Shown here: piece by piece, positions 3,975 to 35,952 of the stretch
Position numbering within the stretch: position 1 is the stretch's first letter
Layout of the letters: each line of letters opens with the position of its first letter
From: Thermosynechococcus vestitus BP-1
GTDB lineage: Bacteria > Cyanobacteriota > Cyanobacteriia > Thermosynechococcales > Thermosynechococcaceae
NCBI RefSeq assembly: GCF_000011345.1
Contig: NC_004113.1
Coordinates: 1,240,001-1,304,000, forward strand
Direction of reading: 5' to 3'
Length of the DNA: 64,000 bases
Position numbers and translations under genes: made by a program
The notes under the pieces: model-generated
The model's input: the letters and a program-made list of their open reading frames with translations, nothing else
What the model was told of the DNA's origin: nothing
Databases searched by the model: none

Positions 3975-5258
3975 TTAAAGGCGCCCATCTGCATCTTCCT
4001 TGGACAATACCCACTTGACATCATACAGAGCACTTGGAGTTTTCAAGCAACGGCGAATGCCAGCGGCACCCAATTCAAAAAATTGACGATGAGCAACTGC
4101 AATCACTGCACCATCCCAGTACTCTGGGTACAACTCCTCAATCAGTGAAATGCCATACTCCTTTTTAGCCAAGTCGGGATCAGCCCATGGATCATAAACA
4201 TCTACCTGAATACCATAATCTTGCAGCTCAGAAATAATATCGACAACACGTGTATTACGAAGGTCAGGGCAATTTTCCTTAAATGTTAGACCCATGACCA
4301 GGACTCTTGCTTGTTGTGGATAGATTCCTTTTTGGATTAGAAGCTTAATAAACTGTTGAGCGACATAAGTGCCCATGTAGTCGTTAATTCGTCGGCCAGC
4401 TAAAATCAATTCAGGGTGATAACCATAGGCAGATGCCTGGTAAGTAAGATAGTAGGGATCTACACCAATGCAGTGACCACCGACTAATCCCGGACGGAAA
4501 GGCAAAAAATTCCACTTTGTTCCTGCGGCTGTTAGTACCTCTTGAGTGTCAATTCCTAAGCGATTAAAGAGAATAGAAAGTTCATTGACTAAAGCAATAT
4601 TGACATCCCGCTGAATATTCTCAATCACCTTAGCAGCTTCTGCTACCCTAATTGAGCTACATCTATGGGTTCCTGCGGGTACAATTGAGGCATAGACCCG
4701 ATCTACAATCTCTGCCACCTCAGGAGTTGATCCAGAGGTAACTTTAACAATCGTAGTCAAACGATGCTCTTTATCTCCCGGATTCACACGTTCTGGACTA
4801 TACCCTACAAAGAAATCTTGGTTGAAAACAAGGCCAGAAGCTTGCTCAAGAATGGGTACACAGATTTCTTCAGTAACACCCGGATAGACAGTGGATTCAT
4901 AGACAACAATACTGTTGCGGGGGAGAACATTACCGAGATGTTGAGAAGCAGTTTTAAGAGATCCTAAATCAGGTACTTTATGATCGTCCACAGGAGTTGG
5001 AACTGCGACTACGAAAAAGGAGCATTTTTTCAAGTCTTGGATATTGGTTGTGTAAGTTAAATATGAAGCACCTTTTAGCTCTTCAGAACTGATTTCGCCT
5101 GTGTGATCATACCCTTCGATGAGTTGGGATACTCGCAGAGAATTTAAGTCATAGCCTAAAGTGGGATATTTTTTGCCGAACTCCACTGCTAAAGGTAAGC
5201 CAACATACCCAAGGCCAATCACGGCAATTGAAAGGTTGCTATATTCCATTTGTTGCAT
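3975..5258 (-). CDS. Nucleotide-sugar 6-dehydrogenase (UDP-GlcNAc/GalNAc dehydrogenase, WbpA/TviB type)
   Basis: This 427-residue UDP-glucose/GDP-mannose dehydrogenase family enzyme has the NAD motif GLGYVG at 15-20, the PTPVD segment near 87-91, and catalytic Cys263 in GGHCIGVDP. The family performs a four-electron NAD-dependent oxidation of the sugar C6 to a carboxylate. The overall pattern (GYDL, TGEIS, ESTVYPG) matches the WbpA/WbpO/TviB subgroup acting on N-acetylhexosamine nucleotides rather than UDP-glucose; this is inference. The start is supported by an AGGAG sequence just upstream of ATG 5258. It begins 2 bases from the glycosyltransferase stop, so the two are probably translationally coupled. 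Confidence 0.88.
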   Translation of the reverse strand: MQQMEYSNLSIAVIGLGYVGLPLAVEFGKKYPTLGYDLNSLRVSQLIEGYDHTGEISSEELKGASYLTYTTNIQDLKKCSFFVVAVPTPVDDHKVPDLGSLKTASQHLGNVLPRNSIVVYESTVYPGVTEEICVPILEQASGLVFNQDFFVGYSPERVNPGDKEHRLTTIVKVTSGSTPEVAEIVDRVYASIVPAGTHRCSSIRVAEAAKVIENIQRDVNIALVNELSILFNRLGIDTQEVLTAAGTKWNFLPFRPGLVGGHCIGVDPYYLTYQASAYGYHPELILAGRRINDYMGTYVAQQFIKLLIQKGIYPQQARVLVMGLTFKENCPDLRNTRVVDIISELQDYGIQVDVYDPWADPDLAKKEYGISLIEELYPEYWDGAVIAVAHRQFFELGAAGIRRCLKTPSALYDVKWVLSKEDADGRL

Positions 5259-11827: not shown

Positions 11828-12097
11828 ATGGCCCTGCAACACGACGTTAAACAAGAAATTATCAACACCTACCAGATCCACGGTACGGATACTGGCTCCA
11901 CGGATGTCCAAGTTGCCATCCTCACGGAGCGGATCAAGCAGCTTTCTGAGCATCTCAAGGTGAATAAAAAAGATCACGCCTCTCGCCGAGGACTGCTGAA
12001 AATCATTGGCCGTCGCAAGCGGCTATTGGCCTATCTCTATCGCCACGATCCCCAGCGCTATCAGCAACTCATTGAACGTTTAGGAATCCGGGGTTAA
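11828..12097 (+). CDS. rpsO: 30S ribosomal protein S15
   Basis: This 89-residue basic protein shows the full S15 pattern: [33 protein letters not shown] and [14 protein letters not shown]15 binds the central domain of 16S rRNA early in 30S assembly. An in-frame ATG at 11822 is two codons further upstream, but family members begin MAL, favouring 11828. It is followed after 5 bases by the PAM68-like gene, with which it is probably cotranscribed. Confidence 0.97.
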
Positions 12098-31214: not shown

Positions 31215-31223
31215 GCTCCCTAA

Positions 31224-31683
31224 AAACCCATGACCTTGGCGACGGTTTGTTCTGTGGGTTCAATAGCCAGCAGACAATAGGCCTTCAGAATTTCCTCATC
31301 TGTAACGGCATTAAAAGCCCCTTGGCTGGCTTCCTTGACCGCGATCGCCCGCTGCCAGTTGGCAGGATTGCCAATACGAATCGCCGTCGCAATGGTTTCA
31401 GGATGCGTTACAATCTCACCCTTGACTAGGGGGGCGGACCCCGCCGCTTGAAAGCCCATCATCCGCGGCAGGCGATCGCAACGGTTTTGCTCACGATACT
31501 GGCAAAAGCCCATCCAGTAGGCCGTAATGTTACCGGCATTGCCCAAGCTATCCACTACCTCAAAGGCCGCTGTTTTCTGTCCTTCCAGCCGATAGGGATT
31601 GACGGAATTGACCAGGGTCACGGGGTAGGTTTCCGCCATGAGCCGGACAATTTCCAAGGCCTTATCAAAGTTGCCCTCAATGG
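31224..31683 (-). pseudogene. Truncated, internally deleted copy of thrC
   Basis: This is a nearly identical copy of the 3' two-thirds of the intact thrC at 32620. It lacks the 5' part (pyridoxal lysine included) and has two in-frame deletions: 33 bases between two copies of GGCATTGCCCA, and 171 bases that remove the segment after YCLLA. The copy is 460 bases against 664 in the intact gene; the difference is exactly 204. A frame of 170 codons (31220-31732) survives but cannot encode a working threonine synthase. Confidence 0.93.
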
Positions 31684-31804
31684 TTTTGCTGCGGGCGCCT
31701 CGTACCTTGTGCTTGGCCAACCTATTTTGCAAGCAACGGTCCTGCCCCAGCTTGCGATGCGACTTACCACAGTATCATTCAAGAATATGATTGAGAAAGA
31801 TTAG
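31684..31804 (+). pseudogene. Possible fragment of orotidine-phosphate decarboxylase gene
   Basis: Directly beyond the thrC-copy breakpoint, one plus-strand frame reads AAGASYLVLGQPILQA and continues to a stop at 31804. The GA-x-YLV-x-G-x-PI-x-QA pattern resembles the phosphate-binding end of PyrF, but the usual arginine is glutamine. It would be only the last 40 residues. This is tentative. Confidence 0.3.
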
Positions 31805-32002: not shown

Positions 32003-32623
32003 ATGAACAGTCATGGGATGAACCTGCGCTGGCAATTCCTTTTAGCAACTACTGTTGCGGTAACAATTTTACCATTTTCCATCGTCCCAGCAGCAACGGC
32101 TCGTCCTGGATCTCCTTTCCCTCAGGGAATTGAGCGGGACGCAAGCAAAGTTTTTCGAGATATAGCCAAAGCGCAGTACGAAGGTATGCGAGCAAAAGCC
32201 GTTAGTAGTGCAGATGCCAGCCTTTTGACCTTGGGCGATCGCCTACTGACCTCGGCCCAGCAACTCCAGCAAAGCGGCAACTACTTCCAAGCCCGACAAA
32301 CTGCCAAGGCCGCGACCCGTGTTTATGAAGCTGCTCGGAATCTTGGTGAAGCGCGCACAGGCCAAGCACTGCTTTCCAGAAGTTACTATGAAGCTCCTTT
32401 TGAGGTAATTCGTGAGCTAAAACGCACTGAGGCAGAAATGGCTTATTTCCGAGGTAACAACGCCACTGCACGCAGTCTATTCAACCAAGCTCAACAGCTG
32501 GCTCAGCCTGCTAGCTCAACGACTCCTGCTACCGCCGATATTCGCTACTTAGCCACCAATCGGGCTGCAGTTCAATTGCTGAAAGCTAGTCGCCACCTGA
32601 TGCGAGCAGAGCTAGGCTTCTAA
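32003..32623 (+). CDS. Exported hypothetical alpha-helical protein
   Basis: This protein of about 206 residues has a Sec-type signal peptide (basic start, hydrophobic core [17 protein letters not shown], cleavage after ATA) and a mature part predicted as alpha-helical with heptad-like Ala/Gln/Leu repeats. It is probably periplasmic. I recognise no family with certainty. The GGAG sequence 6 bases upstream favours ATG 32003 over the in-frame ATG at 31985. It has its own good promoter and is convergent with thrC, whose stop codon overlaps. It lies between the defective and the intact thrC copies. Confidence 0.75.
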
Positions 32624-33708
32624 AAGCCCATCACCTTGGCCACGGTTTGTTCTGTGGGTTCAATGTGGCGGTGGAAGCGATCGCTCTCCTGCTTGAGCGC
32701 GGTTTCTGGATCCTTGAGGCCATTGCCCGTGAGCACACAAACGACCGTAGCACCACTGGGCACCTGATCGGCCAACTTCAAGAGGCCAGCCACAGAAGCG
32801 GCACTCGCCGGTTCACAGAAAATCCCTTCCTCGGAGGCCAGCAGACAATAGGCCTTCAGGATTTCCTCATCTGTAACGGCATTAAAAGCCCCTTGGCTGG
32901 CTTCCTTGACCGCGATCGCCCGCTGCCAGTTGGCAGGATTGCCAATACGAATCGCCGTCGCAATGGTTTCGGGATGCGTCACAATCTCACCCTTGACTAG
33001 GGGAGCGGACCCCGCCGCTTGAAAGCCCATCATCCGCGGCAGGCGATCGCAACGGTTTTGCTCACGATACTGGCAAAAGCCCATCCAGTAGGCCGTAATG
33101 TTACCGGCATTGCCCATAGGAATGCAGAGCCAGTCGGGGGCATTGCCCAAGCTATCCACCACCTCAAAAGCCGCTGTTTTCTGTCCCTCCAGCCGATAGG
33201 GATTGACGGAATTAACTAGGGTCACGGGGTAGGTTTCCGCCATGAGGCGGACAATTTCCAAGGCTTTATCAAAGTTGCCCTCAATGGCAATAACTTCAGC
33301 GCCATACAGAAGCGCTTGGGCGAGTTTCCCTTGGGCAACATAGCCCTCTGGCACTAGGACATAGGCGCGTAGTCCAGCTCGTCGGGCATAGGCCGCCGCA
33401 GCGGCTGAGGTATTCCCTGTGCTGGCACAAATCACCGCCTCAGCACCTGCTTCCTTGGCCTTGGAAATAGCCATGGTCATGCCCCGATCCTTGAAGCTCC
33501 CTGTGGGGTTGAGGCCGTCGTACTTGACATAAACTGAGACGTTGCGGCCAATCCGCGCTGCAATTTGAGGCACCGGAATCAATGGCGTATTCCCCTCATA
33601 GAGGGTGACCACTGGGGTGCGATCGCTCACGGGCAAAAAGTCACCGTAGGCGTGAATTAAGCCATGCCAAGCAGGACGGATAGGGGGAGCAGAGAGTGTT
33701 ACAGGCAC
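32620..33708 (-). CDS. thrC: Threonine synthase
   Basis: This pyridoxal-phosphate fold-type II enzyme of about 362 residues has the [10 protein letters not shown] entry loop, the Schiff-base lysine in [11 protein letters not shown] and the glycine-rich [14 protein letters not shown] loop. It converts O-phosphohomoserine to threonine. The frame reaches ATG 33789, but the first 27 residues do not look native, and the family normally starts shortly before [11 protein letters not shown] 33708 is therefore preferred. A damaged duplicate of its 3' part lies 0.9 kb downstream of its end. It is divergent from the phosphatase gene. Confidence 0.9.
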
Positions 33709-33831
33709 AGGTACGCAGTCAAGAAATATGAATAAATTTGAGGCTGAGGATAGAGTGCAGCCGCACAGTACAATAATTTTAGCCATCAAGGGTTACACTT
33801 GCCAATTGCCGCCCTGGGGGAAAGCAACACA

Positions 33832-34446
33832 ATGCGTTTAATTTTGATTCGTCATGGAGAAGCTGTTGGCAATGATTCGGGCGTTATGCTTGGACGGCAA
33901 GATGTGCCCCTCACAGAACGGGGACGGCAGCAAGCCCTTGCCCTGCGGGAAAAACTCCCCCGGCCGAATGCCATTTACACCAGTCCGCTGCAACGCTGCC
34001 ACGATACGGCTACGCTGATGAATCCCTGTCCCGACTTAAAAATTCAAGAGCTAGCGGAGTTGATTGAAATTGATCAGGGAATTTTTACAGGACTGACATG
34101 GGCACAGGCCCAGTCACAACATCCTGACCTCTGTGAAGAACTGGAAGAGAGCGATTACCTGATTCCAGTCCCCGAAGCCGAGTCAATGGCCATGGCTTGG
34201 CAGCGGGCAAAACAGGCTTGGAAACAACTCCGACGTCACAGTGATGAGGACTGCGTTTGGTGTATTAGTCATGGCGGTTTTTTGCAGTGCCTTATTAGTG
34301 TTGTGCTGGGGAGCGATCGCCTCTGGGGGATGGAGATTCCCCCCGCTGCTTGGTTCGACTTCTCAGTACGGGTGGATTTAGATGGACGCTTCGAAGCAGA
34401 AAATACCCGCTGGTGGCGTATTCATGCCTTCAATCAGTTCCCCTAG
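33832..34446 (+). CDS. Histidine phosphatase family protein (phosphoglycerate mutase-like)
   Basis: This 204-residue protein has the catalytic RHG motif at its N-terminus (LILIRHGEA), the second arginine in TSPLQRCHDTA, the central glutamate region LIEIDQGIFTGLTW and the C-terminal histidine in ISHGGFLQC. The family removes phosphate through a phosphohistidine intermediate from sugars, nucleotides or cofactors; the substrate is unknown. I chose ATG 33832 because the RHG core normally lies close to the start and a GGGGGAAAG sequence precedes it. It is divergent from thrC. Confidence 0.85.
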   Translation: MRLILIRHGEAVGNDSGVMLGRQDVPLTERGRQQALALREKLPRPNAIYTSPLQRCHDTATLMNPCPDLKIQELAELIEIDQGIFTGLTWAQAQSQHPDLCEELEESDYLIPVPEAESMAMAWQRAKQAWKQLRRHSDEDCVWCISHGGFLQCLISVVLGSDRLWGMEIPPAAWFDFSVRVDLDGRFEAENTRWWRIHAFNQFP

Positions 34447-34533: not shown

Positions 34534-35241
34534 CTAAGGAATCGTTACCCAGCATGCTGCTTCAAATTCATCAACTAAACGAAAGCGTTCAAATGTTCCT
34601 TGGCTACTTTGGCGATCAATCCAGATGGGGAGGCTAATCAGACCGCGATTGTCCTTAATGAGCCGGCGGATCGAGCCGTCGCTGTCACGATAGAGGCGTA
34701 TGCCATTCACCAGTGCCCAGGATTCTCCTAGACTGAGCCCCCCAAGCGAGTGATTTGAGCGGGGGTGGAAAGGGCGATCGCCACCCGGTCAGCAAGCTTC
34801 ACTCTCCCCAGTGCCTCACTGGAATCAATCCGAACAACTGCTTTCAAATCTGTGAGCCGTTCGTAGGAATTGGGTTTTGAGAACTTGCTAGTCGAAGCAG
34901 TTTTCAAGTGCTCTTTGCTGAACTATGATGCCAAGGGCTAACTTTACTCCCCGATGTTTGTCCATCTTAACTTCCCCTACAAGGGATAGGAGAAGTCCAT
35001 AAACTGTGGATGGCGGTGGGTAGCGATAGGTTTCTTTATAATTCTGCTGCGACACTGGCCATGCTCCTGAACGGTTGCAAACACGGACACGCTCTATGCA
35101 TTGGTTGCACAGTCCTATGATGAGGAGATCATCTTCCTCAGTTAGGACTTTTTCGAGCTGCCAGTGTAGCTTTTGCCGCTCCCGAGGTGTAAGACGACAG
35201 CCAAAAATTGAGAACTTCAATCGTTCACCGTAACCCTCTAT
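34534..35241 (-). pseudogene. Decayed cas2-cas5 remnant (CRISPR-Cas type I, MYXAN/DevS-like Cas5)
   Basis: Reading right to left on the minus strand, a Cas2 tail (IEGYGERL, FSIFGCRLTPRE, DDLLIIGLCNQC) runs without a stop into a Cas5 N-terminal part (YKETYRYPPPSTVYGLLLSL). After a stop near 34888 Cas5 continues in a second frame (YERLTDLKAVV, RVAIALSTPAQITRLGG) and then in a third (LSLGESWALVNGIRLY, SLPIWIDRQ, FRLVDEFEAACW) to TAG at 34534-34536. Cas2 lacks its N-terminus. The join shows that an internal segment was lost. Neither protein can be functional and no CRISPR array is visible nearby. Confidence 0.85.
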
Positions 35242-35340
35242 AGAGGCAGAGCGTCATTCGTTGAAGATGCAAGTTCAATAACACAGGCAAAGAGACACAA
35301 TCCCTTGGCGTTCTTCTAGGGTTAGGGGCTGCAACACTCT

Positions 35341-35952
35341 CTAACGATTGTTCCGCCACTGAAAGCTGCGTTTCCATGCGGGCGATCGCGGGGGCAATTC
35401 CTGCAACGAGGCTGTTACATGGTTAAACACCTCCTCCATTACCGGCAGGGGCACTTGATCCTCGGCCTCCAAAAGAAGCGCCAGCCGCCGTCCCCCCTGT
35501 AGCTGTATGAAGTACACCTCCTGGTGAATCGGTCGTGGCACTGGCAAATAGCGCACTTCACCGCGCAGGCGCCGTCCCAAAATGCGTCGCTCAACGGGTG
35601 CGGATGGGGTGGTGGGGGAGCCCCCCAGTTGGGTAAAGCGTAGCCAATTGCGCAACTCCTGATCCGAGAGACCCCCCAGTACGTCATCTATTTTGGGTAG
35701 GCCAATGAGGCTCACCATTAACTCGTGCTCCCCGGGTACAGCATTGGCGGGATAAACCACAGTAACGCCATTCTCACCAAAAGCGGTGGGTGGCGAAAAT
35801 GGAAGGGGTGTTTCAAAGGATAGCCCCAGCAGTTGATAGCGTTGGGACCCAGGGGCAACTGCCTCAATTGTCGGTTCACTTGCCTGCCCCATGAGCAGGG
35901 GAAACGCCCCCAAAAGGGTCAGACTACAACCAAGGATCAGCAGCAAACGCAT
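35341..35952 (-). CDS. Exported hypothetical protein
   Basis: This 203-residue protein has a clear signal peptide (MRLLLILGCSLTLLGAFPLL, then cleavage near GQA) and a mature part rich in beta strands and prolines, with basic residues at the C-terminus. I recognise no family. The N-terminal cysteine at position 9 lies inside the hydrophobic core, so a lipoprotein box is not evident. It is probably cotranscribed with the upstream RDD membrane protein, 11 bases away. A cell-envelope role is inferred. Confidence 0.7.
   Translation of the reverse strand: MRLLLILGCSLTLLGAFPLLMGQASEPTIEAVAPGSQRYQLLGLSFETPLPFSPPTAFGENGVTVVYPANAVPGEHELMVSLIGLPKIDDVLGGLSDQELRNWLRFTQLGGSPTTPSAPVERRILGRRLRGEVRYLPVPRPIHQEVYFIQLQGGRRLALLLEAEDQVPLPVMEEVFNHVTASLQELPPRSPAWKRSFQWRNNR

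Follow-up and report, generated by a model that had tools for sequence, protein, structure and literature searches.

Remains of a type I-MYXAN CRISPR-Cas locus left by deletion and decay in Thermosynechococcus vestitus BP-1

Between a gene for an uncharacterised protein and a histidine phosphatase gene, the genome of Thermosynechococcus vestitus BP-1 carries the remains of two CRISPR-associated genes, cas2 and cas5, joined on the minus strand at positions 35241 to 34534 of the window (the whole 64,000-nucleotide stretch of DNA that was analysed). The limits of this relic are the first aligning Cas2 codon (35241) and the Cas5 stop codon (34534). We compared it with 11 genomes of the genus, including the window's own (G000; a single contig of 2,593,857 bases), and the features below are given in window coordinates, with L021 denoting the corresponding locus of the relative G003.

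35341–35952, minus strand: left border gene, encoding an uncharacterised protein with no Pfam match; adjoins cas4-cas1 in G002, G003, G004 and G007
35242–35285, minus strand: unmatched bases at the scar of a second deletion, at the site of cas4-cas1 and the start of cas2 in L021 (14038 joined to 12041)
35041–35241, minus strand: Cas2 C-terminal fragment, approximately residues 27–95 of an intact 97 amino acids, N-terminus lost (TIGR01573/PF09827, tblastn and DNA identity)
35034–35046, minus strand: cas2–cas5 deletion junction, where the parent sequences have few bases in common
34925–35040, minus strand: Cas5/DevS part 1, continuing the Cas2 reading frame and stopping at a 50-nt deletion (TIGR02586/TIGR02593 and alignment to the L021 cas5)
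34746–34924, minus strand: Cas5/DevS part 2, in a second frame and stopping at a 1-nt deletion (TIGR02586 positions 88–131 and alignment)
34534–34745, minus strand: Cas5/DevS part 3, in a third frame, with an in-frame 3-nt deletion, reaching the conserved stop (TIGR02586 positions 129–182 and alignment)
33799–34446, plus strand: right border gene, encoding a histidine phosphatase (PF00300), in convergent orientation to cas5

The join between the two genes lies within a 120-codon open frame (35250–34888, minus strand). Profile searches of this frame revealed a Cas2 match that passes the curated cut-off of both models (PF09827, E = 2.9e-8; TIGR01573, E = 1e-7), followed within a few residues by the N-terminus of Cas5 (TIGR02586 cas5_cmx5_devS, E = 7.8e-7; TIGR02593, E = 1.1e-6, above cut-off), with the Pfam Cas5 model reaching only E = 0.017, below its cut-off. 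Two further frames, 34907–34728 and 34755–34534, matched consecutive stretches of the TIGR02586 model (positions 88–131, E = 3e-6, and positions 129–182, E = 4.7e-6, respectively), while a Pfam search of these two frames returned no match. None of the Cas5 pieces reached the whole-protein TIGR02586 cut-off of 111.5 bits, as would be expected of fragments. The original prediction, made from the sequence alone, had described a Cas2 C-terminal part running in frame into a Cas5 N-terminal part, with Cas5 continuing through two more frames, and the profiles bear out both statements; the strand, which it had left out, is minus. The tblastn and TIGR profile checks that it had proposed for the three frames returned matches to Cas2 and Cas5/DevS.

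Used as a query, the relic DNA had matches in 10 of the 11 genus genomes, and in G003 it led to an intact parent that has the same strand and is flanked by the same two border genes. This locus encodes, in order on one strand, cas4-cas1 (TIGR03983, 535 bits), cas2, an array of 25 repeats, cas6 (TIGR02807), cas3 (TIGR01587), cas8 in two open reading frames (TIGR03485/TIGR03486, each slightly below cut-off), cas7 (TIGR02585) and cas5 (TIGR02586, 115.3 bits, above cut-off), and NCBIfam labels the Cas1, Cas5, Cas6 and Cas8 models type I-MYXAN. The G003 Cas2 protein aligned to the relic by tblastn with 88% amino acid identity and no stops. At the DNA level, L021 12041–11843 matched the Cas2 part at 93.5% identity over 199 nt and the Cas5 part aligned from the very next base, which excludes a chance resemblance. 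The relic thus shares borders, strand, gene order and Cas5/DevS family with a type I-MYXAN locus, but the G003 locus is complete whereas the window retains only pieces of cas2 and cas5; tblastn of the G003 Cas7 and Cas8 proteins against the window found neither. A vanished type I locus with a MYXAN/DevS-type Cas5 had been predicted, together with a comparison to other Thermosynechococcus genomes in search of an intact array, and the G003 locus with its 25 repeats provides exactly such a counterpart.

Alignment to L021 also located the break points. In the main deletion, window position 35040 is matched in L021 by position 11843 towards cas2 and by position 4017 towards cas5, so that approximately 7.8 kb containing the array, cas6, cas3, cas8 and cas7 is missing. 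From the few bases that the parent sequences have in common there, the junction would have formed by short-homology or non-homologous joining. A second deletion, which the original prediction had not described, joins window positions 35286 and 35238 (L021 14038 and 12041), with cas4-cas1 and the beginning of cas2 lost in between; it leaves 47 bases unmatched at the DNA level (35285–35239), the last three of which lie inside an aligned Cas2 codon. Within cas5, comparison with L021 revealed a 50-nt deletion, a 1-nt deletion and an in-frame 3-nt deletion. The join had been attributed in advance to either loss of DNA or inversion. Loss stands, as the join skips exactly the array-to-cas7 stretch of G003, while inversion is unnecessary.

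The same comparison bears on whether the fragments were imported by transfer or rearrangement, inversion included, and are not the residue of a resident locus. In some relatives the locus has moved, or its surroundings have been rearranged: G009 has a different gene order with neither border gene near its cas genes, and the phosphatase gene of G002 and G007 is found elsewhere. In G003 and G004, however, both borders enclose intact loci on the same strand and in the same order, and deletion alone accounts for the join, which makes an imported origin extremely unlikely and leaves deletion from a resident locus as our preferred reading.

Substitutions in the remaining codons point in the direction of decay, although less strongly than the frame breaks do. 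Across 66 Cas2 codons the window and G003 differ at 15 bases. With the majority state among three intact genomes used for polarisation, 11 of these changes fall on the window lineage (4 silent, 7 replacement) and 3 on the G003 lineage, and 1 is ambiguous. The intact pair G003 and G002 has 15 silent and 1 replacement codons in Cas2 (Fisher p = 0.0025 against 4:7, a test that sets 11 polarised changes against pairwise codon differences), but more distant intact pairs have more Cas2 replacements (G003–G004, 17:10), such that the contrast with the window lineage depends on the pair chosen. For Cas5, the window and G003 differ at 16 silent and 33 replacement codons out of 168, a count that may be inflated near the frame breaks, versus silent-to-replacement ratios of 59:41, 66:49, 58:51 and 31:20 in four intact pairs; against G004 the window gives 56:44, like the intact pairs. 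The cas5 piece of G008, another genome with an eroded locus, gives 6:14 against G003. On these small numbers the replacement share suggests relaxed selection and falls short of proof. Continued decay after the join, as originally proposed, is nonetheless upheld by the 50-nt and 1-nt deletions in cas5 and by a share of amino acid changes that is higher in comparison with G003, although the numbers are small and the comparison of Cas5 with G004 shows no such rise.

The surviving frame could instead be read as a working small protein, a domesticated Cas2–Cas5 remnant with a new role, and it does stay open for 120 codons across the join. Yet its Cas2 part has no ATG before the join, and the earliest start codon listed, a TTG at 35220, already lies within that part; the Cas2 N-terminus, where the metal-binding aspartate sits, and the Cas5 start are both gone; Cas5 is shifted in frame twice; the changes look unconstrained; and no Cas2 survives in G008, the only other complete genome whose loss was mapped. 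We therefore give this reading hardly any weight. A short product may still be made from the 120-codon frame, but the relic most likely has no function today, judging from its sequence.

Profile matches and alignments together show which genes the pieces come from, that an intact parent occupies this site in a relative, and where the deletions and frame breaks lie, and we are all but certain that the relic is a pseudogene scar of a resident type I-MYXAN locus, left by deletions and now decaying. Under this explanation an intact locus would once have stood between the border genes at 35341–35952 and 33799–34446. A deletion of approximately 7.8 kb, with a few shared end bases at most, would have brought the end of cas2 up against cas5 at around codon 20, the reading frame being kept by chance, and another would have removed cas4-cas1 and roughly the first 26 codons of cas2. 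What remained would have decayed without constraint, acquiring the 50-nt and 1-nt deletions in cas5. The order of these deletions is one we infer.

In the rest of the G000 genome, searches for Cas1, Cas2, Cas3, Cas6/Cmx6, Cmr2 and the relatives' repeat brought up no working counterpart. Genome-wide searches found no match to Cas1, Cmr2 or Cas6/Cmx6, and none to Cas3 above cut-off; three weak Cas3 matches were obtained with a search that also gives matches in all 14 control genomes, in 6 of them above cut-off. The sole Cas2 match is the relic fragment itself. G000 consequently has no Cas1–Cas2 adaptation module, which in the relatives consists of a cas4-cas1 fusion and cas2 (a Cas2 fragment only, no Cas1), no complete set of Cas3 and type I-MYXAN effector genes (cas5 broken, no Cas6/Cmx6, no above-cutoff Cas3) and, in a search of window and genome with the relatives' repeat, no array. 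What it does have is what a relic would leave behind, namely Cas2 and Cas5/DevS homology at a site where G003 and G004 hold an intact parent between both orthologous borders. In the window, no copy of the relatives' repeat was detected at up to 6 substitutions, in keeping with the predicted lack of an array there. Nor did 173 spacers from ten loci of the relatives (170 distinct) give any sign that the lost system targeted the window, since their matches in it were short only (longest, 18 nt at 94%, E = 0.007). No identical spacers were shared between the ten loci.

Elsewhere in the window, beyond the phosphatase gene, a threonine-synthase-like gene (PALP family, PF00291) occurs on the minus strand as a shortened copy (31220–31732) and a full copy (32620–33789) approximately 0.9 kb apart. 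The two are 90% identical in DNA over 451 aligned columns, and the stretch was matched once in each of five relatives' loci (L021, L022, L023, L028 and L029).

A single repeat of the relatives' type was found in G000 (genome-wide, at up to 3 mismatches) at position 1,496,787, with 2 mismatches and approximately 220 kb from the relic; lying outside the window, it had not been part of the original prediction. The approximately 300 bases that end in this repeat align to cas-linked arrays at their leader side and first repeat (85% to L021), and leader-like sequence and repeat together span L044 1237–1536, at approximately 1,496.5–1,496.8 kb of the genome. The sequence on either side corresponds to that around a second array of 7 repeats in G008, and the left side corresponds as well to the left flank of arrays with 19 repeats in G007 and 11 repeats in G002; in G003, two lone repeats and inserted genes lie between these flanks. 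A second, unlinked array was probably reduced here to its leader and one repeat, an outcome expected of recombination between repeats. Beyond the window, the best hit of the spacers (16 nt, E = 4e-4, L044/L045) coincides in part with this lone repeat. Ectopic repeats can also regulate a toxin, as described for CreTA in the accessible part of PMC9458426; we set such a reading aside, as the preceding sequence matches the leaders of real arrays and the gene context is that of the 7-repeat array in G008. At the G003 site (L047 5043–7670), the two lone repeats lie 1.2 kb apart and enclose an open reading frame with an HSDR_N restriction-enzyme match (E = 1.7e-6), directly preceded by a cyclopropane-synthase-like gene.

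Across the 11 genomes the locus is kept in five, persists as eroded cas5 pieces in another five and is absent in both forms from one. The keepers (G002, G003, G004, G007 and G009) have Cas1, Cas2, Cas6/Cmx6, above-cutoff Cas3 and a full-length Cas5, which exceeds its curated cut-off in three of the five; G009, whose gene order differs and whose first cas8 reading frame shows one stop when aligned by tblastn, is a candidate system only. Between its cas8 and cas7, approximately six head-to-tail copies of a 147-base unit are found (L026 4035–4922). The eroded genomes are G000, G005, G006, G008 and G010, of which G005, G006 and G010 are drafts in 80–220 contigs, where absences are less certain. 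Matches to Cas2 and to part of Cmr2 were also obtained in G005; G006 has a partial Cmr2 and a Cas1 match with one stop and just 29% identity to the G003 Cas1; and in G010 a Cas1 fragment adjoins the left border. The remaining genome, G001, has neither locus nor cas5 pieces and no match genome-wide to Cas1, Cas2, Cas5/DevS, Cas6/Cmx6 or Cmr2, and it carries one repeat with 1 mismatch (G001:C1:2540112–2540147).

The eroded locus of G008 (L022) resembles the relic in having the same borders, with only cas5 residues 96–205 left, and its genome, like G000, lacks matches to Cas1, Cmr2, Cas6/Cmx6 and above-cutoff Cas3, and to Cas2 as well. It differs in having a larger, single deletion of 10 kb with other ends (L021 13852 and 3775) and in keeping a 7-repeat array elsewhere. 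That array (L046 7127–7575; six of seven repeats perfect) is an orphan in a genome without Cas1, Cas2, Cmr2, Cas6/Cmx6 or above-cutoff Cas3. In L053, from a metagenome-assembled genome (Thermosynechococcus sp. M98_K2018_005) found through the left border protein and possibly one of the 11, the border sequence that directly precedes cas4-cas1 leads straight to fragments of a broken cas5, with other ends again; its border region is 93% identical to that of G004, which is intact, and 87% to that of G003. The end points fall into three different sets, two of which have closely related genomes with an intact locus beside them, and this pattern suggests that the losses were separate. Counts of sites in three alignments speak for the same conclusion, favouring G003 with G008 (17 + 12 + 11 = 40) over G000 with G008 (2 + 6 + 3 = 11), with G000 and G003 between them (7 + 4 + 8 = 19); these are local alignments and not a genome tree, and a fourth, having no outgroup, was left out. 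A first deletion common to G000 and G008 is conceivable, if less likely, the G008 deletion spanning the 7.8-kb one.

The accessible part of PMC9403480 states that BP-1 and NIES-2134 have no CRISPR-Cas system, which agrees with the absence of working cas genes in G000, and mentions neither the cas2–cas5 relic nor the one-repeat scar. BP-1 is counted with one CRISPR locus in the accessible part of PMC10536717, and the corresponding parts of PMC2662882 and PMC10957709 contain nothing on the relic locus. We found no description of the relic in these texts or in the mostly open-access literature searched.

Taken alone, the scar changes nothing in the field: this is the ordinary decay of a known system, and what is of mild interest is that the locus has eroded repeatedly within the genus. 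A broader reading, which we hold to be possible but rather doubtful, is that the genus repeatedly discards the same resident type I-MYXAN locus by separate deletions lying between the two border genes, with the second array orphaned or collapsed to a leader and one repeat. If so, immunity would have been repeatedly counter-selected in hot-spring lineages, and the easy transformability for which the laboratory strain is known could follow from the loss. For G000 itself, the absence of CRISPR-Cas is a secondary loss whose scar can still be read, not the state of a genome that never had the system, and a genus with keepers and with losers at different break points amounts to a small natural experiment on the discarding of adaptive immunity.
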